Origin: Kiritimatiellaceae bacterium
GTDB taxonomy: Bacteria; Verrucomicrobiota; Kiritimatiellia; Kiritimatiellales; Tichowtungiaceae
Length of the DNA: 64,000 bases
Assembly (NCBI GenBank): GCA_013141415.1
Contig: JABFQY010000005.1
Coordinates: 1 to 64,000, forward strand
Reading direction: 5' to 3'
The first letter of the stretch is position 1; each line of letters opens with the position of its first letter. The position numbers and the translations under genes are program-made. A model generated the notes under the pieces. The model ran no database searches. It worked only from the letters and a program-made list of their open reading frames with translations, and had not been told where the DNA came from. Shown here piece by piece: positions 6,393 to 40,785 of the stretch.

Positions 6393-9300
6393 CTATTGCT
6401 TCTCAATGACTGCGGCACCGAAGGTGAAGCCGCCGCCGAACGCGGTGAGGCCGACGAGCGCGTCTTTTTTCATTTGCGGCATCAGCTCAACCAGCGCGAA
6501 CGGGATGGTGTTCGACGAGGTGTTGGCGTATTTGCGGATGTGGTTGAACATTTTTTCCGGCGGGCAGTGGATCGTTTTGCGGATCGCCTCGATAATCCGC
6601 TCGTTGGCCTGATGCGGCACAATCTTATCGAGCTGTTCGACGGAAATGTTCCGGTTTTTGCAGGCTTCAGCCAGAATATCGATCATCTTGCGCACGGCGA
6701 TTTTGAAGACGGTAAGGCCTTCCATTTCAATTTTTTCGCCGGTTCCCATGTGCGGAACATAGAGCACCTTCTGATCGACGCCGACGGCTGAAAGAACGGG
6801 ACGGTTGACCAGTACGTTGACGTTGCCGCCGCGCGGTTCGCAGGAAACGAGCGAAGCCGTTGCGGCGTCGCCGAAGAGCGCGAGCGTCTTCTGGTCTTCA
6901 TGATTGATCATCGGTGACAGCGTTTCGGCTGAGATGATGAGGACTTTCTTCGACGGATCATCGCGCAGAATATCGACTGCGTTCTGCAAAGCGTACATAT
7001 AGCCGGCGCAGGCGGCGCTGACATCGTGCGCCTGCATCTGAACTTCGCCCTTTGGCGGGCTGAGTTCTTTGAGAACGCGGCAGGCGAGCGACGGGGTCAT
7101 CATCAGCGGTGTGCCGGTCGAGCAGACGATGGCGTCGATATCGGCCAGCACCAGTTTTTCCATTTCCAGCAGGTCGCGGACGGCTTTGACGGCCAGCGTT
7201 TCGACGTTTTCGTCGCCGGTAATCCAGTAGCGGTTTTCGCAGCCGGTGCGTGAACGGATTGCTTCGGAATCCCACTCGCCATGTCCCTGTAACAGCTCTT
7301 CGTTTTTTATGTGGCGCGAGCCGAGTACCGTGGCGATAGAGGAGATGATCGCCGGCTTATGTTCAACCGCCGCCCGTTTTTCCAGAACGGCCGCCGCCCG
7401 TTTTTCCAGAACCGGTGTACCGGGATCGTCCTTGGTGACCGGTTTTTTGATCAGGCTGACTTCTTTGGTGACGATACGGGCGAGCGGCGTGCCGACATCG
7501 ACCGAATCGCCTTCGGCAAGGAACAACTCCTCGACCGTGCCGCTGACCGGCGATGAAATTTCCATCGTTGCTTTATCGGCTTCAACGGAGGCGAGCAGTT
7601 CGCCAGCCTCGACCGCCTGTCCCGCTTTAATGTGCAGTTCGGTGACTTTGACCGTTTTATCGGACGGGCTGGAGCCGATGGCGTTGACGGTGACGGAGCC
7701 TTCGGCTTCTTCGACCGGCTTCTGCCACGTCAGCGAATAGCCGAGCAGTTCGGCGGCTTTGCCGAGCACGGTGCGGAAGGAAGGCAGGACTTCAATCTGC
7801 GTTTCAAAAAGGTAGGGGATGTAGGTGTCGTGCCGCGTGACGCGCGCCATCTGCACCGGTACGTTCGCTTTTTCGGCGACGGTGGCCAGCACTTCACCGC
7901 CGAACCCGCAGGTGTGATTATCTTCGTGGACGACGAGCAGTCGGCCGGTTTTCTGTGCGGAGGCGATGACGGCGTCCTGATCCCACGGAACCAGCGAGCG
8001 CAGATCAATCACTTCGACAGATGCTCCAGCGACTTGAAGCGCTTCGGCAGTTTTTTCGCACAGCGGAACCGTACTGCCCCAGCTGACAATCGTCAGGTCG
8101 CGGCCCGGACGGGTGACGCGCGCCTTGCCGATCGGCACGAACTGTTTTGATGCGTCGGCAGCGGCGGTGACGGAACGGTCGTTGATCAGATTTTTCGGGA
8201 AGAGAAAAACGGTCGGACGTCCGGATTCAAACGCGGCGTTGAGCAGTCCGGCGGCATCCGGCGCGGTGGACGGCATAAAGACGTCGAGGCCGGGAATGTG
8301 CGCGAATGTGGCGTCGAAGGTTTGCGCATGATACGGGCCGAGACCGGGGCGGTAGGCGCCGCAAATCGCCATCAGGATCACGGGGCATTCCCACTGTCCG
8401 TTGGTACGCCACCACATCGCGCCGAGTTCGGCGGCGATTTGATTGAAAGCGGGCAGCATGAAGTCGGCGAACTGAATACAGGCGACCGGTTTTTTGCCGA
8501 CCAGCGCCTGGCCGATAGCCGCGCCGACAATCGTGGATTCGCTGAGCGGCGCGTTGATGACCTGTCCGGGGAACGCGGTGCTCAGTCCGCGCGTCAGGCC
8601 GAACACATCGCCCTTCGGATCTTCGATATCTTCGCCGTAGAGGTAAACATCGGCGTCGGTGCCGAGGCGGTTGCGGAGTACGGCGCGCATCGCTTCGAGC
8701 ATGGTGAGCGCGTCGCCGTCAGCGCGGGTTTCGTTTTTCGCGTTGGTCAGTTTTGCCGGCAGCGGCCTTTTGGCGCTAAGTTCCGTTTTGGCGTTCTTCG
8801 CTTTGCGGGCGTCGTCGAAAGCGACACTGAGTTCCTGATTTACTTCGTGCTCAATGGCCTTGAGCTGGGTTTCTGGAATTCCTGCGGCGATCAGTTTTTC
8901 CGCCAGAATCAGAATCGGGTCGGCCTTTTCGCGCATTTCGCGGATGTCGGCGGCGGAACGGTAAAGCGTGTGGTCGTCGGCGTTGGTGTGGCTGGTCAGC
9001 CGCTCGACGTCCAGAACGACGATTTGCGGGCCGCGGGTTTTCCGAATCTTGGAAATCGCGTCGCCGAATACGCGGTGTGTCTCGACGGCATCGGTACCGT
9101 CGGCGCGCAGAATCGGCAGACCGTAAAATTCCTTGGCATCGCCGTCCGGCAGAGAGAAAAAGGTGCGGCCCTTGGACGGAGTCGAAAGCGCGTAGCGGTT
9201 GTTCTGAACGACGAAGAGAACCGGAAGCTGTGAGCGGACGGCTTCGGCGATCGCTTCAAAAAATTCACCTTCCTGTGTACCGCCGTCACCGATGCCGCAA

Positions 9301-9710
9301 TAGACGATGTCTTTGCCGGTTTTGATGGCTTGCGCCACGCCGACGGCTTGCAGCGTGTTGCTGCCGACGCCGGTCGGCGCGCCGAACAAATTCAGTTTCC
9401 GGTTGCAGGCGAAGCCGGGCATATTGCGGCCTTCGGTCGGCGAGCCGGTTTTGCCGAGCAGGTCGAGAAGCAGATCTTTCTGGGTGATGCCGCGGGCAAG
9501 CATTAGGGCGCGGTCGCGGTAGTGGCAGTGGAGCCAGTCGGTCGGCGTCAGATGGGGCGCGAGCGCCGCCATGGATTCGTGGCCGGACGAAGGAATATAG
9601 AAAAAGGCCTCGCCGCGCTGGGCGGCGTCTTCCTGAACGGCGTCGGCTTTACGCGACGCGAGCATGTGACGGTAGAGGCCGAGAAAAAGTTGGGTGTCTA
9701 AAGTTTGCAT
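6393..9710 (-). CDS. Fused 2-oxoacid dehydrogenase E1alpha-E1beta, lipoyl domain and FabH-like ketoacyl synthase
   Basis: One 1105-residue polypeptide with four domains. Residues about 1-320 are a thiamine-diphosphate E1alpha ([13 protein letters not shown]...QNNRYA). Residues about 330-670 are E1beta ([38 protein letters not shown]). Residues about 685-760 are a lipoyl domain with lipoylation motif [10 protein letters not shown] (Lys713). Residues about 790-1105 are a KAS III with the full triad: Cys901 (SAACAGYMY), His1033 (PHQANERI) and Asn1067 (SSNTIPF). No E2 acyltransferase motif (HxxxDG) is seen. A period-8 repeat ([16 protein letters not shown]) links the lipoyl and KAS parts. The E1 part resembles branched-chain enzymes. 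I infer that an acyl group is passed from lipoyl to the KAS cysteine. ATG at 9710 is used because the extension to 9893 is not homologous and overlaps ygiQ. Confidence 0.9.
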
Positions 9711-25110: not shown

Positions 25111-28100
25111 ATGGCAAAAAGTCTCGGACGGTATGGAATTTTTCTGGCGGCTTGGATGTCCGCTTTTTTTGTGCAGGCGGTGCCGCTTTGTTTCATGGAT
25201 GCAAAGCAGCAGGGCAGTTTTAATATCGGTGCGGCGCAGGCAACTGTTTCCCGCGAGTTTGAAGAAGCGCCGATCAACCGCGACCTGCTGATTATCAGTT
25301 ATTCCATTCCCGACCAGACCGCCGCCGGAGTCTGGGCCAAGGAATATCCCGCCGCGCTGGCCGCCGGTTCCGTTGATGTCGTCGAACTCGGCATCTATGT
25401 TCCTGAAGAGAGCGCCTCGGCGATTGCTCTGGCGTTCGAGATTAAAGGCTCAGCCGGTACGCAGCGCTTTCCTGTGCAATTGCATCCAGGCTGGAGCACA
25501 ACGCGCGAGCTGATTGACTGGAATAAAATCGGCACGATCAGTGAAACGGTTCTCTTGATTAAGCGCATTGGCGGCGATAACCCCGCGACCGGCCGCATCC
25601 GGCTGGACATGACATTTCAAAAACTTCCGTTTTGGGAAAAACTGCGCGCCACGCTTTGGGGCCGGCTCGGCGGCATTACCATGTTCAGTCTGTTGCTGAG
25701 TCTGCTGGTCGCGGTGATCCGGCGGAAAATGAAGGTTGCAGTGAAAGGGTTCGCCCGCGATCTGTCTTTCGGTGTCGCCGCCGTGCTGATCGTTTCCTCG
25801 GTGCTCGGCGTTTACTCGCTCGGCAAATCGAACCCGCTCGATTCCGGCTGGTTCTGTTTTTACGTCGCGGGTGCCGGCATGCTCGCCAGTCTGCTGATTA
25901 AACTTCCGCTGGCTGGGCGTCCGGTTTTTTCCGGCGAAACGTTGATCAGCGCGCTCTGTCCCGGCCTGCTGGCCGCCGCCGCCAGCAAAGAAGTCCTCTG
26001 GCAGGCACCGGATTCACTGACCGGTTTTTTCCAGCTCAGCGGATTCGGCGCGGCGCTGTTCATTCTGATTTTTCATATCACCAATATCTATCGCCTCAAC
26101 CTGCGGAAAAAACATATCGGCATCATCAGCGGCGGTATCATCACCGCCGCGCCGTTCGTTTTCGGACTGCTGCTGGCGATGCAGTCGTTTCACTATTTCA
26201 TAGTTCAGGCTTTGCTGATTTTCTGCGTCGGCGAATTTATCGCCAACGCCTCATCCTTGATCAACCGCGAGCGGCCTCTTCTCTCGCTCAAAGTTCACCG
26301 TGCGCTGTTTGTGCTCTCCGTGCTGGCAACCGCTTCGCCGATGATTGCCGATCTCGGTTCCGGCGAATCCGCCGCCGCGCTTCCGGCACTGCTTCGCCCG
26401 TTCGCCGCGGTTCTCGCCACGATGTTTTCACAGGCTCCGCTGTGGGGAATTGTTTATCTGTTCACTGGACTGATTCTCGGCGCAATGCACGGCAACGCGC
26501 CCTCCGGCACGGTGGCGCAGGACGACGCCATTCGCGGAATGAAAAAAGGAATGGTCTTTAGCGGCGTGCTGATGGGCCTGCTCCAGCTGTTTCATGCAGT
26601 GGCCGGAGCGTCCTGGTTGCAGAATTTTTACACAGCCTCTCCGGCGCTTCTTCTCACGCTGGCGGGCGTCGCGGTTTTTCCGCTGTTCAAAACCGTCATC
26701 GAAACCTTTGACGGCAGTCAGTCATTTTTCGGGCGCGCTTCCTGTGCCTACAAAGATCCGGTGCTCTACCTGCGCGGACTGGTTCTCGGTGTCGCGTTCG
26801 CCGTCGGCCTGAATATGAACTTTGCCGGTCTGCCGACAGCGCAGCGCGTCGGGTTCGGCTTCGCGGCAGGCGCGGCGGCCTTTGGCGGCGTGAGCATTTT
26901 GCGCGACCTGCTGTTCGGCGCGCGCGGCATCGGCGGTGTCAAATCGTGGCGCTATTATTTAGTCGAAAGCGGACTCGGCGCATTTATCGGCGCGGGCATC
27001 GGCTTCTATCTCGACGCTTCTCAGCTTCCGATTATCGGAACCAAGTTTGAACTCTATAACAGCTTCGGCCTGAATCCGGCGGAGATCGTCACGCGCTGTC
27101 AGCAACTGCGCACCACCGCGCCGAACGAATACACCGCGCTGATCAGCCGCTGGGGCCATATCAAACTTTCCGCCGCGTCCGGCGGCGCGAAGATTCTGTT
27201 CAACGAAGCGCTGATGGGTGTGATCGGCTGGGGAATTGCCGCGCCGCTTTTCGCGATCAACAAAGCATTTCTTTCCGCGCTGCTCAACCGCGATGCGTCT
27301 TCGATCAAGCGGATTGCGACCCGCCCCGGCCTGATCGAGCTGGCCGACGGCACCGTTTATGTTCTGCGCTGGGGCCTTTGGATGGCGCCGCTGATCTTCA
27401 CCTTCCTGCGCCCGATGGCCGAAGCCGCCTGGTACAATCAGGACGGACTCATCCGCACCTTCTTCGCGATTTTCAACAGCATGACCCGCGATGCCGCCGG
27501 CTTTACCGCGTGGAGCCTGACGGTGTTCAGCTGGATCATCGGCTACGCCTGGTTCCAGATTCTGATCTGGATTGATCACATGGGACTGCGCGTTGCGACG
27601 CTGGTTAATCTTTCGTTCCTCGGCGTTGACCGGCTCGACGAACGCTGCGCCACCTTTGTCGGCGCGGAAGCCACTGCCCGGTTTATTCCGGAAGGAGTAA
27701 AACGGTTCACCACCTGGGCGCCGCTACTGATTCCGTTCTATCTGCCGAAGGGCGAACAGTGGGCGCAGGTCTTCAGCGCCGGTGCCGCTATTCAGGCGCG
27801 GCAGGCCGGTGCCGCGCCGGGACTGGTTACGCGGATTCTCATCGCCGTTGCGGCGGCGGGCATCACGACGCTGCTGTTCACACTGCGGCGGAAACGGCGC
27901 GAGCGCCGCGCGGAAGAAGCCGAAGAGACCTTTGGTTTGATTAACAACAAATACGAAGTGGAGCTGAAGAAGAGCGGCGAGATCAATTCATTCCTGACGT
28001 CGAACGGATTCGGTATCAGCCGCTGCGCGTTTGAAAACGTCGATCCGTCCGGGCGCATTCTGTTTATCGTAGAGGTCGGCGAAAACGGCGCGGCGAATAA

Positions 28101-31100
28101 AGCGTGGCCGGTTCTCGGAAATTTTCCGGCGGAACTTTTTACGCCGTCCGTTCATGAAGGCAATAGCGACCGGATCCGGGTGGTTAACACCGCCAACGAA
28201 GTTCGCGTTACGGTCACCATCAAACTGCCGGGGCGCAACGACGCGGTGGAGCTGTGGACGATCGAGCTCGAAGACCTCAGTGGTAAGGCTCGTAATCTGA
28301 AAGTGGTTCCATACCTTGAATGGATGCTGAACCGCGCGGATGCCGACCGCAATCACACGCAGTATAACCGGCTTTATCCGGAAATGTCGTATCGCGCAGA
28401 AATCAACGCGATGCTGGCGTTTCACCGCAGCACCAAACTCTACGGCATTCTGGCTTCGTCCGACACGCCTTCCGGCGTGCTGACGGGGCGCATCGATTTT
28501 ATCGGCCGGGCCGGAAGCATCTGGACTCCGCGCGCACTCGAAACACTTGCCTTTCGGAAGGCGTGTGATGCGGAAGCCTGTCCGACATTCGATCCGATCG
28601 GTTCTCTATTGCTCGACGCGCCGCTCCCCGCGAACGGCAGACTGTCTCACCGGGTTTTGATCGGCGGATGCGAGCATAAGGCGCGCGCCGAGCAGATGAT
28701 CGTGAAATATCTCCGGCCGCAAACGGTTTCGCCGCTGTGCGGACAGAAAGAGCCGGAGCGTCCGTTAAAAATCGGGCACGGCGAAATTCCTGTCGGCACG
28801 CCGGAGCGCTACACGGAATATACCGACGACGGCAACACCCTGCGTGTGCTGACCCCGTTTACGCCGCGACCGTTCGACCACGAAATGGCGAATCCGCTGG
28901 GTCACGTTGTCGCCGTTACGAACCACGGACTGCATTCGTCGGCCAGCGGCAACGCGCAGCAGAACCGGCTGACGCCCGACTGGGCCGACCTGATCGGCGA
29001 TCAGATTCCGTCCGAGGCGATTTATCTCTACGACGAACAGACCGGCGACTGGTTTTCGCCGTGCTACGATCCGCTCAAAGATCGCACCGCCGCGCACGAT
29101 GTGTTCTTCAGTCTCGACGGCAGCGCGCTTTTCAAAATGCAGAAGGGCGGACTCGAAACCGAACTTTCTGTGCATGTGCCGCTCGACGAACCGGCTGGCG
29201 TTTATTTGTTAACAATCCGCAACACCGGCATTGCGCCGCGCCGGTTGCGCGTTGCGCCGTATTTCCAGATTGCGCTGGCGCACAGTCCGGAATATGCGGG
29301 CTCGCTGCTCATTTCGCGCGACGCCAAAACCGGCGCGCTCTATTTTGAAAATCCGCGCAACCGTTTCCGTACCGGCTCCTGCTTCGCCGCCATAAGCGAA
29401 CCGGTTGAACAGTTCGCTACGCGCCGCGACCGTTTCTTCGGCGCGGGCCGCACGTTTGCCCGTCCGCTGTTTGTCGAATCCGGCGCGCCCGCTCCGGCGG
29501 CAGACGACTGCCTGCCGGTCGCGGCACTGCTGACGACCGTTGAAATTCCGGCGGGCGGCGAAAAAATAATTTCCATTGTGCTGGGCGAAGCGGACAGCCG
29601 TAAGCAGGCTGAAGCCTGTGTGAAAAAATTTCAGGTTCCGGAAAATGCCGGACAGAGTTTGCAGGCCACCCGCGACTGGTGGATGGCATTGCAGTCCACG
29701 CTCAAGGTGGAAACGGACGACCCGGAATTTGATGCCTATGTGAAGTGGATGAAATACCAGACACTCAGCGAACGCATCTGGGCGCGCAAAGGATTCTATC
29801 AGGCCTCCGGCGCATTCGGTTTCCGCGATCAGTTGCAGGATACCGTCAACATGATCTGGGTTGATCCGTCGCTGGCGCGTGCCCAGCTCATTCTGCATGC
29901 GGCCCAGCAGTTTCCCGAGGGCGATACGGCCCACTGGTTTTTCCTCCAGCAGGACGGACGTACCGGATTCCTGAGCCGTTCGCATGCCAGCGATAATCTG
30001 ATCTGGCTCGGCTGGGGCGTGGCGGAATATGTCCGCATGACCGGCGACACGACACTGCTCGACGAAAAGGTCAGTTATCTCAAAGCCGAAACGCCGCTTG
30101 CGCCGTTGCCTGCCGGTAAGCACGGCATGGGTTTCTTTCCGTTGCGTTCGCCGCGCAGTGACTCTGTTTATAATCACGTCATGCGCGCCGTGGATCTGGT
30201 GTTGAATAAACGGATGGGCCGCCACGGACTTCCGCTGATGGGAACCGGCGATTGGAATGACGGGCTTGACGAAATCGGCAGTAAAGGGCGCGGCGAATCG
30301 GTCTGGATGGCTTTTTTCCTGACGTACGCGCTGAAAAATCTTCTGCCGATTATCGGGGAACGCAGCGGAAAAAAACGGCGCCATCACTATGAACAGCAGT
30401 TGCGGATCCTGGGCCGGAATATTGAAAAGGTCTGGCGCGGCGACCGCTACCTGCGCGCGATTCACGACGACGGCACCGAAATCGGTGTGGCGGGCGCGGG
30501 CTACTGGGAAACCGACGCGCTCGGTGCGGCGTGGGCTGTTTTTTCCGGCGTCAACCCGTTGCGCAGCCGCATCGCGCTTGATACGGCGCTGAAAATTCTG
30601 GAAGGCGGAAAAACCATTTGTCTTGGCTGGCCCGCACTGCGCGAAAACACCAGACCGTATCTTGGACGCAGCAGCACGTATCCGGAAGGGGTGCGCGAGA
30701 ACGGAATGTATTCGCACGGCGTCCAGTGGCTGACACGCGCCTGCCGCCTGCTCGCCGAGCGCTTCGCCGCGCAGGGCGACGAAGTCACCGCGCAGCACTA
30801 CCGCGATGCCGCCGTCCGGCTCTGGTATAAAATTTCCGCCATTCCGCACACCCGTGGCGCAGAAATTGAAAACTACGGCGGACAGCCGAATAAGCAGTGT
30901 GCCGACTATCTTACCGTCCACGATCCGGGTCGCATGATCTGGAGCGGTTACACCGGCGCGGCGGGCTGGATGCTGCGGCAGGCGTGTGAAAGCGTCGTCG
31001 GCGCAACACTGGAAAACAATCAGGTGATTTTGCCGGATGATTTGGCCTTGCCTCGCGGCGGGCTCACCGTTAAACGTGTCCGCCGTAATCTGATTAAAAG

Positions 31101-31116
31101 TCCGCTTAAAGAATGA
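25111..31116 (+). CDS. Giant multi-pass membrane protein with C-terminal GH94 (NdvB-like) module
   Basis: A 2001-residue protein in three parts. Residues 1-180 are a signal-like start and a beta-rich extracytoplasmic domain. Residues about 185-925 hold some 14 hydrophobic segments ending at the basic stretch LRRKRRERR. Residues about 945-2001 are a glycosyltransferase-36/GH94 module: a first sandwich domain, a second one from about 1228 ('GNAQQNRLTPDWADL', 'EAIYLYDEQTGDWFSP') and an (alpha/alpha)6 barrel with the catalytic Asp region GTGDWNDGLDEIG near 1710. The module is close to that of cyclic beta-1,2-glucan synthases, but I see no GT84 synthase motifs such as QxxRW in the membrane part. 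It may phosphorolyse or trim beta-glucans at the membrane. Confidence 0.85.
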   Translation: MAKSLGRYGIFLAAWMSAFFVQAVPLCFMDAKQQGSFNIGAAQATVSREFEEAPINRDLLIISYSIPDQTAAGVWAKEYPAALAAGSVDVVELGIYVPEESASAIALAFEIKGSAGTQRFPVQLHPGWSTTRELIDWNKIGTISETVLLIKRIGGDNPATGRIRLDMTFQKLPFWEKLRATLWGRLGGITMFSLLLSLLVAVIRRKMKVAVKGFARDLSFGVAAVLIVSSVLGVYSLGKSNPLDSGWFCFYVAGAGMLASLLIKLPLAGRPVFSGETLISALCPGLLAAAASKEVLWQAPDSLTGFFQLSGFGAALFILIFHITNIYRLNLRKKHIGIISGGIITAAPFVFGLLLAMQSFHYFIVQALLIFCVGEFIANASSLINRERPLLSLKVHRALFVLSVLATASPMIADLGSGESAAALPALLRPFAAVLATMFSQAPLWGIVYLFTGLILGAMHGNAPSGTVAQDDAIRGMKKGMVFSGVLMGLLQLFHAVAGASWLQNFYTASPALLLTLAGVAVFPLFKTVIETFDGSQSFFGRASCAYKDPVLYLRGLVLGVAFAVGLNMNFAGLPTAQRVGFGFAAGAAAFGGVSILRDLLFGARGIGGVKSWRYYLVESGLGAFIGAGIGFYLDASQLPIIGTKFELYNSFGLNPAEIVTRCQQLRTTAPNEYTALISRWGHIKLSAASGGAKILFNEALMGVIGWGIAAPLFAINKAFLSALLNRDASSIKRIATRPGLIELADGTVYVLRWGLWMAPLIFTFLRPMAEAAWYNQDGLIRTFFAIFNSMTRDAAGFTAWSLTVFSWIIGYAWFQILIWIDHMGLRVATLVNLSFLGVDRLDERCATFVGAEATARFIPEGVKRFTTWAPLLIPFYLPKGEQWAQVFSAGAAIQARQAGAAPGLVTRILIAVAAAGITTLLFTLRRKRRERRAEEAEETFGLINNKYEVELKKSGEINSFLTSNGFGISRCAFENVDPSGRILFIVEVGENGAANKAWPVLGNFPAELFTPSVHEGNSDRIRVVNTANEVRVTVTIKLPGRNDAVELWTIELEDLSGKARNLKVVPYLEWMLNRADADRNHTQYNRLYPEMSYRAEINAMLAFHRSTKLYGILASSDTPSGVLTGRIDFIGRAGSIWTPRALETLAFRKACDAEACPTFDPIGSLLLDAPLPANGRLSHRVLIGGCEHKARAEQMIVKYLRPQTVSPLCGQKEPERPLKIGHGEIPVGTPERYTEYTDDGNTLRVLTPFTPRPFDHEMANPLGHVVAVTNHGLHSSASGNAQQNRLTPDWADLIGDQIPSEAIYLYDEQTGDWFSPCYDPLKDRTAAHDVFFSLDGSALFKMQKGGLETELSVHVPLDEPAGVYLLTIRNTGIAPRRLRVAPYFQIALAHSPEYAGSLLISRDAKTGALYFENPRNRFRTGSCFAAISEPVEQFATRRDRFFGAGRTFARPLFVESGAPAPAADDCLPVAALLTTVEIPAGGEKIISIVLGEADSRKQAEACVKKFQVPENAGQSLQATRDWWMALQSTLKVETDDPEFDAYVKWMKYQTLSERIWARKGFYQASGAFGFRDQLQDTVNMIWVDPSLARAQLILHAAQQFPEGDTAHWFFLQQDGRTGFLSRSHASDNLIWLGWGVAEYVRMTGDTTLLDEKVSYLKAETPLAPLPAGKHGMGFFPLRSPRSDSVYNHVMRAVDLVLNKRMGRHGLPLMGTGDWNDGLDEIGSKGRGESVWMAFFLTYALKNLLPIIGERSGKKRRHHYEQQLRILGRNIEKVWRGDRYLRAIHDDGTEIGVAGAGYWETDALGAAWAVFSGVNPLRSRIALDTALKILEGGKTICLGWPALRENTRPYLGRSSTYPEGVRENGMYSHGVQWLTRACRLLAERFAAQGDEVTAQHYRDAAVRLWYKISAIPHTRGAEIENYGGQPNKQCADYLTVHDPGRMIWSGYTGAAGWMLRQACESVVGATLENNQVILPDDLALPRGGLTVKRVRRNLIKSPLKE

Positions 31117-31870: not shown

Positions 31871-33937
31871 ATGATGAAAAAAATAATTGTTACCGCCGGG
31901 TTGAGTGTTTTGCTGGGCGCAGGATGTGCGCATGTTCCACCGCCGTCTCTGCCGGAGACGCCGGACGCGAAGCCGTCGGTTGATGCATTTAATTTCCCGC
32001 TGGTGAATCCGGAGCATGAAAACATGCAACGGCTGCTGGCCAATGCGATGGGATATCTTAAACCAGAGCATGAGTTGGTTGATTCGGCATCCGGTTATCC
32101 GGTTGAAGGCTGGAATCAGGAGCCGGAGCGTGGACTCTATCTGCGCTCATTCACTCAGCTGACGGCGATCGGCGAGCGGGTTGAACTGCTGGCGAACATC
32201 GCGGCGGGGTATGCGGACAATCCGTACATTTCACGCGAAGAGGCGCTTCGTCAGCTTAAGCGGATGACATCGAGTCTGCTGTCCGATCAGACCGATCCCA
32301 AGGTGAGCGCCAAAGGATTGCTCGGAAATTTTCTAGGGTTCAGTCCGGCTGGACGGATCGGCCCGCTGAGCGAGGAAGTAGAGAAGCAGAAGTTTATTGA
32401 TGCATTCGGCGGGGAACAGGCTGTCCAAATCTGGGACGCGCTGGTTGCCCGTAAGTGGATTGTTCCGCAGCAGGACGGTTCGTTCGCCAAGATTCCGCGC
32501 AAAGGGGAGTATGGTGACAAATTTTTTACCGGCGAGCTGACGCCGTTTGCCGAGAGCAACACCTGCGCGAAAATTATGGCGGTGCTGGACATGCGCGTGG
32601 TGCAGATTATTTTCGGCGACAACGCCAACCTGACGGCGTCGGCGGCCAAAGCAATCGGTGCGCTGCACCATTCGACGTTGCGCAACGAATCGCTGGCGGC
32701 GGAACTGTGCGAACAGCTGGAGCAATTCATCGCACAGCAGGAAGAAGGATACCGCTATCTCTACGATGAAAAGTCGGGCTCGTTTATTTTCGGCTGGAAC
32801 GCGACGAAAGACCGTTTCACCGGCTGGGAAGACAGCAACGGCAAATGGATCGTCGGGCACATGGATTATTTTGTGAACGAGTTCCGCGGCCCGCTTTGCT
32901 TTGTGGTGCAGCGTTTCAATCTGCCAGCGGATGCGGTTAAAAATTCCGGTTTCAAAATCAAGCCGTACCGGATGACGGACGGGTGTGATCTTTATACGCT
33001 GGCGACGTGGCACGGTTCGTCGTTTCAGTCGCTCGGCCTTTCGCTGTTCATGCAGGAGCTGGACACACCGGGCTGGCGGGAAAATCTGGAGAACTCGGTG
33101 GCAATCGAACTCGATTATTCAACCCGGCATAAACTGCCCGGATTTCTGAGCGAAGCGTACAGCGGTCACGGCGTGGAATATACCGGTGATATCGGTATTC
33201 CCGATGTCGCGGTGACCGATCAGCCGCGTATCACCAATGCACCGTCATTGTACACGCTGGGGGTCGCCTATGAAGTGGCGCCGGATAAAATCGAAAAGTT
33301 TCTCGCGGCCAACCGGCGAAAGATCGAACGGCTTTTCACCGACCACGGGCCGTGGGAAGGATACAACGCGACGAAAGACGAAGTGATTCAGTTTCAGACG
33401 ACGGCGCATACACTGGCGCTGATTCTGGGAGGCATTGGTTCCGCTGAAGAAAATATGCAGCGTTATCTGACGTGGCAGGGCATCACGTCGCTATCGAAAG
33501 TTCAAGGCAACGAATCCGTTGCTGTTGATCTGCTGGGCAATGCACAATGGATTTCATGGAGTCCGGGCGGCGACAGTCTGGAAGGACTGCATTGGCGCAA
33601 CGGCTTCCGGGTTCGCGGCGATGCGGTGCGCAACGGCGCGGTAACCGTCAAACTGCCGAAGGCGGCGAGCCTGTCGAACGGGGCTCTGCTGATCCGTTAC
33701 AGAGCGGCAAAGCCGCTGAATACCGTCATGACGCTGACCGGCGGGCCGACGGTGTTTCAGAACGAAATGACTATGCGCTTCGATGTGACCGCTGCGGAAA
33801 AAGAAATTCGGATACCGATGCCCGCAACGCCGGGACTGGAAAGCGTCAGTGAACTGGTGATCCGCTTTGGCGATCCACGCGCTCCGCTTCCGGTCGATTT
33901 GACGCTCTCCGGTTTTGAGTTTTCTCCGGCGAAATAA
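31871..33937 (+). CDS. Large lipoprotein, probable (alpha/alpha)6-type glycoside hydrolase
   Basis: A 688-residue lipoprotein; lipobox L-G-A-G-C19. The body resembles glycoamylase/GH144-type proteins: 'RSFTQLTAIGERVELLANIAAG' near the start, then 'GYRYLYDEKSGSFIFGW', 'HMDYFVNEFRGPL', 'TWHGSSFQSLGLSLFMQEL', 'PGFLSEAYSGHGVEYTGDIGIP' and 'YNATKDEVIQFQTTAHTLALILGG'. A C-terminal beta-sandwich domain (about 560-688) could bind carbohydrate. Position behind a GH94 module often linked to beta-1,2-glucan makes an endo-beta-glucanase an attractive guess, but family and substrate are not proven. Catalytic acids probably lie in the FVNEFRG and FLSEAYSG segments. Confidence 0.6.
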   Translation: MMKKIIVTAGLSVLLGAGCAHVPPPSLPETPDAKPSVDAFNFPLVNPEHENMQRLLANAMGYLKPEHELVDSASGYPVEGWNQEPERGLYLRSFTQLTAIGERVELLANIAAGYADNPYISREEALRQLKRMTSSLLSDQTDPKVSAKGLLGNFLGFSPAGRIGPLSEEVEKQKFIDAFGGEQAVQIWDALVARKWIVPQQDGSFAKIPRKGEYGDKFFTGELTPFAESNTCAKIMAVLDMRVVQIIFGDNANLTASAAKAIGALHHSTLRNESLAAELCEQLEQFIAQQEEGYRYLYDEKSGSFIFGWNATKDRFTGWEDSNGKWIVGHMDYFVNEFRGPLCFVVQRFNLPADAVKNSGFKIKPYRMTDGCDLYTLATWHGSSFQSLGLSLFMQELDTPGWRENLENSVAIELDYSTRHKLPGFLSEAYSGHGVEYTGDIGIPDVAVTDQPRITNAPSLYTLGVAYEVAPDKIEKFLAANRRKIERLFTDHGPWEGYNATKDEVIQFQTTAHTLALILGGIGSAEENMQRYLTWQGITSLSKVQGNESVAVDLLGNAQWISWSPGGDSLEGLHWRNGFRVRGDAVRNGAVTVKLPKAASLSNGALLIRYRAAKPLNTVMTLTGGPTVFQNEMTMRFDVTAAEKEIRIPMPATPGLESVSELVIRFGDPRAPLPVDLTLSGFEFSPAK

Positions 33938-39093: not shown

Positions 39094-40785
39094 ATGAACA
39101 GTGACAGAGTAAAAAAAGGAATGGAACGCGCGCCCCACCGCAGTCTGATGCATGCCACCGGACTAACCGACGCCGACATCCAGAAACCATTCATCGCCGT
39201 CTGCAACTCCTTCAACGAAGTGATTCCCGGCCATGTTCATCTCAATCAGGTTGGACGCCTCATCTGTGAAGCGGTCCGCGAAGCCGGCGGAACGCCGCGC
39301 GAGTTCAATGTCATCGGCGTTTGCGACGGAATTGCCATGGGCCACGAAGGGATGAAATATTCTCTGCCGAGCCGCGAACTGATCGCCGACAGCGTGGAAA
39401 CGATGGTTCAGGCTCACGCCTTTGACGCCATGATCTGTATTCCCAACTGCGACAAAATCGTTCCCGGTATGCTGATGGGCGCGGTTCGTTGCAATATCCC
39501 GACGATTTTCGCCAGCGGCGGCCCGATGGCGGCCGGTCGGCTGGAAGACGGTCGCGTCGTTGACCTCATCAGTGTTTTCGAAGGCGTGGCGCAGTGCAAG
39601 GCCGGTAAAATGAGCGAAGAAGATTTGTTGAAGCTTGAATGTGCTGCATGTCCCGGCGCTGGTTCGTGCTCCGGTATGTTCACGGCCAACTCGATGAACT
39701 GTCTGTGCGAAGCGATCGGTATGGCGCTGCCCGGCAACGGTACTTTGCTGGCGATTGAACCGGCTCGCCGCGAACTCTGGAAAGAAGCCGCGCGTCGCGC
39801 CGTCGCCATGGCCAAAGCCAACGGCCCGAAGCCGCGCGATATCGTCACGCACGATTCCATCGACAATGCCTTCGTGCTCGATATGGCGATGGGCGGCAGC
39901 ACCAACACCGTTCTGCATACGCTCGCCGTCGCCAACGAAGCGGGCGTCGACTACAACCTCGAACGCATCAACCAGCTTTCCAAAACCACGCCGAACATTT
40001 GCAAGGTTTCGCCGTCGTCGAATTTCCATATCGAAGACGTGCGCGACGCCGGCGGCATCAGCGCAATCCTTGGCGAAATCAGCAAAATCAAAGGACTGCT
40101 CAAGTTAGATTGCCCGACGGTCAGCGGCAAAACGCTCGGACAGAATATCGCCGGAGCTGTCAGCAAAAACGAAAAGTGCATTCATAAAGTCGAAAACGCC
40201 TACAGCAAAGAAGGCGGACTCGCCATCCTGCGCGGCAATATTGCCGAAGCGGGTGCTGTTGTGAAGAGCGCGGGCGTTGATCCGAAGATGCTGGTTCATA
40301 AAGGCCCGGCGGTTATTTTTGAATCGCAGGAAGAAGCCTGCGAAGGAATTCTCGGCGGCAAAGTCAAAGCGGGCGACGTCGTCGTTATCCGCTACGAAGG
40401 CCCGAAAGGCGGACCCGGTATGCAGGAAATGCTCGCGCCCACCAGCTACATCATGGGGCAGGGACTTGGCGACAAAGTCGCGCTCATCACCGACGGACGG
40501 TTCAGCGGCGGAACGCGCGGCGCCTGCATCGGCCATATTTCGCCCGAAGCGGCGGAAGGCGGACCGATCGGTCTGCTGAAGACCGGCGACATCATCGAAA
40601 TCGATATTCCGAACCGCAAACTGCACGCCGAAGTTTCCGACAAGGAATTCGCCACGCGCAAAAAATCGTGGAAGAAGCCCGCGCCGCGCTACACCACCGG
40701 CTGGCTCGCCCGCTACGCCTCGCTCGCCACCAACGCCAGCAACGGCGCGGTGCTGAAATCCCAGTGCGACGTCTGCGACGTATAA
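39094..40785 (+). CDS. ilvD: Dihydroxy-acid dehydratase
   Basis: A 563-residue Fe-S dehydratase that forms 2-oxoisovalerate and 2-oxo-3-methylvalerate in branched-chain amino-acid synthesis. Seen are the cluster cysteines in '[17 protein letters not shown]' and '[20 protein letters not shown]', and the C-terminal '[32 protein letters not shown]'. Full length. AAGGAAAGGA lies before the ATG. Other ilv genes are not in the window. Its products are the kind of substrate expected for the E1 part of the 6393-9710 fusion. Confidence 0.97.

Follow-up and report, generated by a model that had tools for sequence, protein, structure and literature searches.

A single-chain fusion of 2-oxoacid dehydrogenase E1, a lipoyl domain and ketoacyl synthase III as a candidate CoA-independent starter of fatty-acid synthesis

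A gene in the 2.2 Mb genome of a Kiritimatiellales-type member of the Verrucomicrobiota joins, in one polypeptide, the E1alpha and E1beta parts of a 2-oxoacid dehydrogenase, a lipoyl domain and a FabH-like beta-ketoacyl-ACP synthase III (KAS III). Judged from its sequence, the protein is probably a single-chain, CoA-independent starter enzyme that would carry 2-oxoisovalerate through an acyl-lipoyl intermediate and the KAS to a 3-oxoacyl-ACP. It is also fairly likely that the protein stands for a widespread family in which the oxidative decarboxylation of a 2-oxoacid is coupled directly via the lipoyl arm to a Claisen condensation, with a 2-oxoacid and malonyl-ACP yielding a 3-oxoacyl-ACP and no CoA intermediate. 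Textbook bacterial fatty-acid synthesis begins from acyl-CoA. If the proposal is true, many bacteria possess an additional way in that avoids CoA and joins amino-acid catabolism directly to the ACP track, and ketosynthases must be counted among the enzymes that lipoyl arms are known to serve. It would then be clear why the iso-fatty acids of the Kiritimatiellae are strictly even, and E. coli could be made to produce iso-branched chains with a single gene. No paper describing this architecture was found in the open-access literature, which omits most subscription journals.

In the proposed mechanism, the E1 half would use thiamine diphosphate for the oxidative decarboxylation of a branched 2-oxoacid, of which 2-oxoisovalerate is the most likely, and for the reductive acylation of the lipoyl arm on Lys713. 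In place of a transfer to CoA by an E2, the arm would swing to the tethered KAS III and acylate Cys901. Condensation of the acyl group with malonyl-ACP would then release 3-oxo-4-methylpentanoyl-ACP, CO2 and dihydrolipoyl. The dihydrolipoyl would be re-oxidised in trans by the E3 of a PDH-type operon, and the product may enter membrane fatty acids. A separate, ordinary FabH would prime straight chains from acetyl-CoA.

Architecture and catalytic residues

The window, which is the whole stretch of 64,000 nucleotides that was analysed, carries the fusion gene on its minus strand (Table 1). Counted from a possible upstream start, GTG 9893, the whole open frame comprises 1166 residues. Two points favour ATG 9710 as the start: a gene extended to the GTG would overlap with ygiQ, which is divergent and starts at about 9808, and homologues start near 9710. 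A preliminary description of this DNA had read E1alpha, E1beta, lipoyl domain and KAS III from a single frame, and the order of the Pfam matches, running on the minus strand from 9710 to 6393, confirms it. The lack of the HxxxDG motif of E2, also claimed there, is borne out: the string is absent from the fusion protein, and Pfam finds no match in it to the E2 domain (2-oxoacid_dh, PF00198).

The C-terminal part scores 262.8 bits with the NCBIfam model PRK09352 (beta-ketoacyl-ACP synthase III) against a cut-off of 249. The E1beta part obtains scores with PDH E1 models, all of them under their cut-offs, and no model for the complete architecture is among the best NCBIfam matches. An AlphaFold model of the full chain has a mean pLDDT of 90.4 and drops below 50 only in the linker at 773-783. 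By Foldseek, the closest solved-structure match is the Thermus branched-chain (BCKDH) E1beta, with a TM of 0.93 by target length, and many FabHs are matched at a TM of about 0.9, among them the CoA-bound FabHs of E. coli and Vibrio.

Table 1. Features of the fusion gene in window coordinates. Conservation refers to an alignment of 54 fusions.
Feature	Position	Strand	Pfam match in the 1166-residue frame	Basis or remark
Fusion gene E1alpha - E1beta - lipoyl - KAS III	6393..9710	-		1105 aa from ATG 9710; open up to GTG 9893; kept in relatives
E1alpha, thiamine-diphosphate-binding subunit	8787..9674	-	E1_dh 74-369 (7e-46)	PF00676
E1beta pyrimidine-binding domain	8184..8708	-	Transket_pyr 396-570 (1.4e-22)	PF02779
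E1beta transketolase C-terminal domain	7803..8129	-	Transketolase_C 589-697 (1.8e-30)	PF02780
Lipoyl domain	7473..7694	-	Biotin_lipoyl 747-807 (1.3e-17)	PF00364
KAS III (FabH-like) domain	6402..7352	-	ACP_syn_III 957-1019 (9e-18); ACP_syn_III_C 1079-1164 (4e-24)	Pfam; PRK09352; Foldseek
His241, SHTNADD loop of E1alpha				invariant 54/54
Glu391 and His461, E1beta pyrimidine-binding domain				invariant 54/54
Lys713 codon, expected lipoyl-lysine	7572..7574	-		invariant 54/54
Ala817, at E. coli FabH Trp32 position (adenine stacking)	7260..7262	-		lost
Thr872, at E. coli FabH Phe87 position (acyl pocket)	7095..7097	-		
Catalytic Cys901	7008..7010	-		invariant 54/54
Gln940, at E. coli FabH Arg151 position (adenine stacking)	6891..6893	-		lost
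Catalytic His1033	6612..6614	-		invariant 54/54
Catalytic Asn1063 (E. coli FabH Asn274)	6522..6524	-		54/54

The features of two enzymes are found side by side in the chain. From the 2-oxoacid dehydrogenases come a thiamine-dependent E1 with catalytic histidines in the alpha loop and in the beta subunit, and from FabH come the KAS III fold and a Cys-His-Asn triad. The lipoyl-lysine had been placed at Lys713, which proves to be the right residue and is predicted to be lipoylated. Of the triad first proposed, Cys901 and His1033 stand, whereas Asn1067 does not, as this position is an asparagine in only 13 of the 54 aligned fusions; the catalytic asparagine is Asn1063.

Distribution and origin of the fusion

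Within the order, the fusion occurs in 41 of 43 genomes, at full length in 32 and as fragments, mostly at contig ends, in 9; the two genomes without it are 72% and 84% complete. A sample of the phylum contributed 18 further full-length fusions, and a scan of the E1beta alignment against 84,980 species found at least 80 loci. Among the matches listed, 76 of the 80 loci continue in frame into the KAS, and the remaining 4 end at a contig edge before the KAS. The matches listed span at least seven phyla by their annotation labels, which for MAGs may be wrong in single cases such as a bin named Borreliella garinii. Annotated carriers belong to the Verrucomicrobiota, Planctomycetota, Spirochaetota, Armatimonadota, Sumerlaeota, Pseudomonadota (Rhizobium, Devosia, Neisseriaceae, Marinobacter and Facilibium) and Cyanobacteriota (Xenococcus). 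Closer to the window, the Pontiellaceae strains B1224 and B12227 carry the fusion (L106, L107). The fusion-carrying genomes G003, G029 and G002 appear to be Pontiella desulfatans, P. sulfatireligans and P. agarivorans, and G030 appears to be Tichowtungia aerotolerans, of the same genus as the window.

Since the frame is intact across dozens of independent genomes, an assembly or frameshift artefact is ruled out, and the hidden frameshift or join that the preliminary description had asked about in related genomes is not there. Its question of whether relatives keep the fusion is answered by the counts above. The architecture, of which it knew no characterised example, is real, and the protein belongs to a widespread family; because the fusion occurs in so many phyla, a lineage-specific oddity is rejected as well. 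A viral origin is without support, as no relative was found in viral contigs. Among plasmids, the best matches were ordinary E1 operons and Streptomyces E1/NRPS clusters, with no copy of the KAS half.

The fusions share a single origin. In trees, the E1 parts, taken from 43 fusions, group as one clade (SH-aLRT 100), and so do the KAS parts (SH-aLRT 100), separate from the standalone FabHs. Distances among the E1 parts and among the KAS parts of 97 proteins are correlated with a mirror-tree r of 0.81; the highest value in 500 permutations was 0.12. Such trees and such a correlation are expected if the two halves fused once and were then inherited together. The clade that adjoins the fusion E1s contains E1alpha-E1beta-lipoyl-E2 chains of other Verrucomicrobiota along with Streptomyces E1s encoded beside NRPS/PKS genes. 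These E2-type relatives suggest a modular C-terminus behind a shared E1-lipoyl front, and the trees are silent on which form came first.

The CoA site, genome context and rival readings

In E. coli and Yersinia FabH, Thr28 binds the adenine of CoA, Trp32 and Arg151 sandwich it, and Arg36 contacts the pantetheine (PMC4606726). The KAS parts of 97 non-redundant fusions were compared at these positions with 44 ordinary FabHs, of which 14 (13 from the order plus E. coli) formed one group and 30 from the phylum the other. Thr28, Trp32 and Arg151 are retained in 0/97 fusions, as opposed to 14/14 and 30/30 ordinary FabHs. Cys112, His244, Asn274, Asn247, Ala246 and Arg249 (E. coli FabH numbering) are retained in all 97 fusions, and Arg36 is retained in 78. 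The CoA site has thus lost its nucleotide end and retains its pantetheine/ACP side, a residue pattern that fits a KAS which would meet malonyl-ACP and an acyl-lipoyl arm. The position of Phe87, which narrows the acyl pocket of E. coli FabH, is Thr in 82/97 and Ser in 13/97 fusions (95/97 together) and Phe in 13/14 standalone FabHs; the exchange would give the fusions a wider acyl pocket.

The loss of the CoA site was dropped as proof on its own, for divergent secondary KAS IIIs also lack Trp32 and Arg151. Fifteen such proteins of the phylum are likewise without the complete Thr28, Trp32 and Arg151 set and have lost most of these residues, and because they share the loss, it marks a KAS as not being a classical acyl-CoA FabH and does not per se mark it as lipoyl-primed. 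Loss of Trp32 and Arg151 can, on this comparison, accompany acyl donors other than lipoyl. The two groups differ at Arg249, which is Arg in 0/15 of the divergent proteins versus 97/97 fusions. At one locus (L207, G088:C89), two secondary KAS III genes whose CoA-site residues are altered stand in tandem (349 and 453 aa).

The source genome encodes exactly two KAS IIIs, the second being an ordinary FabH of the F87 type in a plsX-fabH-fabG-fabF arrangement. Its one E2 lies in an operon with a lipoyl-E3 and a PDH-like E1, and no separate branched-chain E2 was found in this genome; another genome with the fusion (G013, 94% complete) is without any detectable E2. The preliminary description had noted that an E3 would be needed from elsewhere, and the genome has one in a PDH-type operon at C5:112 kb, in trans to the fusion (TIGR01350 above cut-off). 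With this E3, the lipoyl synthase gene lipA and two LplA/LipB homologues, re-oxidation and lipoylation are therefore both available. A recurrent neighbour gene that could name the pathway was sought across phyla, where only generic families recur, such as an ABC-transporter ATPase.

Even iso acids require an isobutyryl primer, which derives from 2-oxoisovalerate, and C18:0 requires an acetyl primer. The cultured Kiritimatiellae on record make i-C12:0, i-C14:0, i-C16:0 and i-C18:0 in varying mixtures together with C18:0, and iso-even acids are major membrane acids in the class of the window (PMC7356697, PMC10880615). Kiritimatiella glycovorans is the richest i-C14:0 producer (42%). Such a profile matches one branched-chain starter enzyme working next to one acetyl-CoA FabH.

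Against this background, four other readings of the fusion can be weighed. The KAS might still be primed by acyl-CoA, with the PDH-type E2 acting in trans to pass the acyl group from lipoyl to CoA and the tether raising the local concentration only. The source genome does have an E2 and most fusions keep the pantetheine-contacting Arg36, but the three adenine-site residues are gone from every fusion and kept in all 44 ordinary FabHs, the sole E2 belongs to its own E1/E3 operon and G013 manages without one, which makes this priming quite unlikely. The KAS could instead be an acyltransferase that replaces E2 and, with no decarboxylative condensation, shifts the acyl group off the lipoyl arm onto a carrier protein, forming acyl-ACP, or onto a different acceptor. 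Acyltransferases that resemble KAS III do exist (PMC4578411 names them), the KAS occupies the place of E2 in the related E1-lipoyl-E2 chains, and the Streptomyces relatives employ lipoyl-E2-ACP loading modules; such a role is nevertheless improbable for a domain in which the full condensing triad and the ACP-side Asn247, Ala246 and Arg249 are invariant. A start from pyruvate would make acetoacetyl-ACP and thereby an acetyl-CoA-independent straight-chain starter, to which the sub-threshold PDH E1 scores of the E1beta part might point. We consider it very improbable in view of the wider pocket predicted from Thr or Ser at the Phe87 position, the F87-type standalone FabH that already covers acetyl-CoA, the Thermus branched-chain E1 as nearest solved structure and the isobutyryl-primed acids made by cultured relatives.

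A last alternative concerns the product and is compatible with the same lipoyl-to-KAS chemistry: in some lineages at least, it may be a specialised lipid or signal and not a membrane fatty acid. In an R. rhizogenes locus, a gene of the fatty-acid-hydroxylase family (PF04116; L163:3724-4719) immediately precedes the fusion in the same orientation, and homologues of it occur close to the fusion in five further loci of the Rhizobium type. Branched membrane lipids are not a known trait of proteobacterial carriers such as Rhizobium and Marinobacter, and for that reason the product may differ by lineage. A specialised product is nonetheless unlikely given that iso-even acids are major components of the membranes in the window's own class and that the fusion gene stands alone in the window, with no biosynthetic cluster around it. 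The hand-over from lipoyl to KAS, which the preliminary description had put forward, gains support as the probable chemistry, since every test run agrees with it, from the monophyly and conservation of the fusion to the missing E2 domain, the kept residues and the CoA-adenine loss.

Comparison with known systems

With the BCKDH complex (E1/E2/E3), the fusion shares both E1 catalytic histidines, a lipoyl domain with an invariant lysine and the requirement for E3. It differs in being one chain without an E2 catalytic domain, and its acyl acceptor would be the tethered KAS III. In common with FabH it has the KAS III fold recovered by Foldseek, the invariant Cys-His-Asn and malonyl-ACP side and a score above the PRK09352 cut-off, but its KAS is devoid of Thr28, Trp32 and Arg151 (97/97) and is joined to its acyl source. 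The route of Bacillus, Staphylococcus and Listeria that combines Bkd with FabH, and bkdABC of Photorhabdus, correspond to what is proposed for the fusion in substrates and in logical product, iso-fatty acids, whereas the classical Bkd and FabH route uses separate proteins and an acyl-CoA intermediate. BkdB of Photorhabdus contains an ACP domain.

Other Verrucomicrobiota encode single chains of about 1030 aa (L048-L058) with the order E1alpha-E1beta-lipoyl-E2, which place a whole E1 and E2 in one polypeptide. Their first three modules follow the same order as in the fusion and they occupy the neighbouring clade of the E1 tree, but their C-terminal module is an E2 (PF00198) and not a KAS III. 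On Streptomyces plasmids (L170:7929-13962 and L171:7881-13910), an E1alpha-beta gene lies beside an NRPS/PKS gene beginning with lipoyl-E2-ACP-KS. This arrangement seems to be an acyl loading module that bypasses free acyl-CoA, and it is presumably comparable to the NapB/NapD ketose-to-ACP system. As proposed for the fusion, a lipoyl-borne acyl group derived from an oxoacid or ketose apparently enters the assembly line there without free acyl-CoA. The Streptomyces modules place E2 and ACP between lipoyl and ketosynthase, whereas the KAS of the fusion comes directly after the lipoyl arm.

Elsewhere in the window, a 688-aa open frame at 31871-33934 (+) has no Pfam match, and a 2001-aa protein encoded at 25111-31113 (+) has GH94 phosphorylase domains at its C-terminus and an N-terminal part of about 1260 residues that matches no Pfam family. 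The window also contains ilvD at 39094-40785 (+; TIGR00110 above cut-off), the gene for the step that yields 2-oxoisovalerate, the proposed substrate of the fusion.
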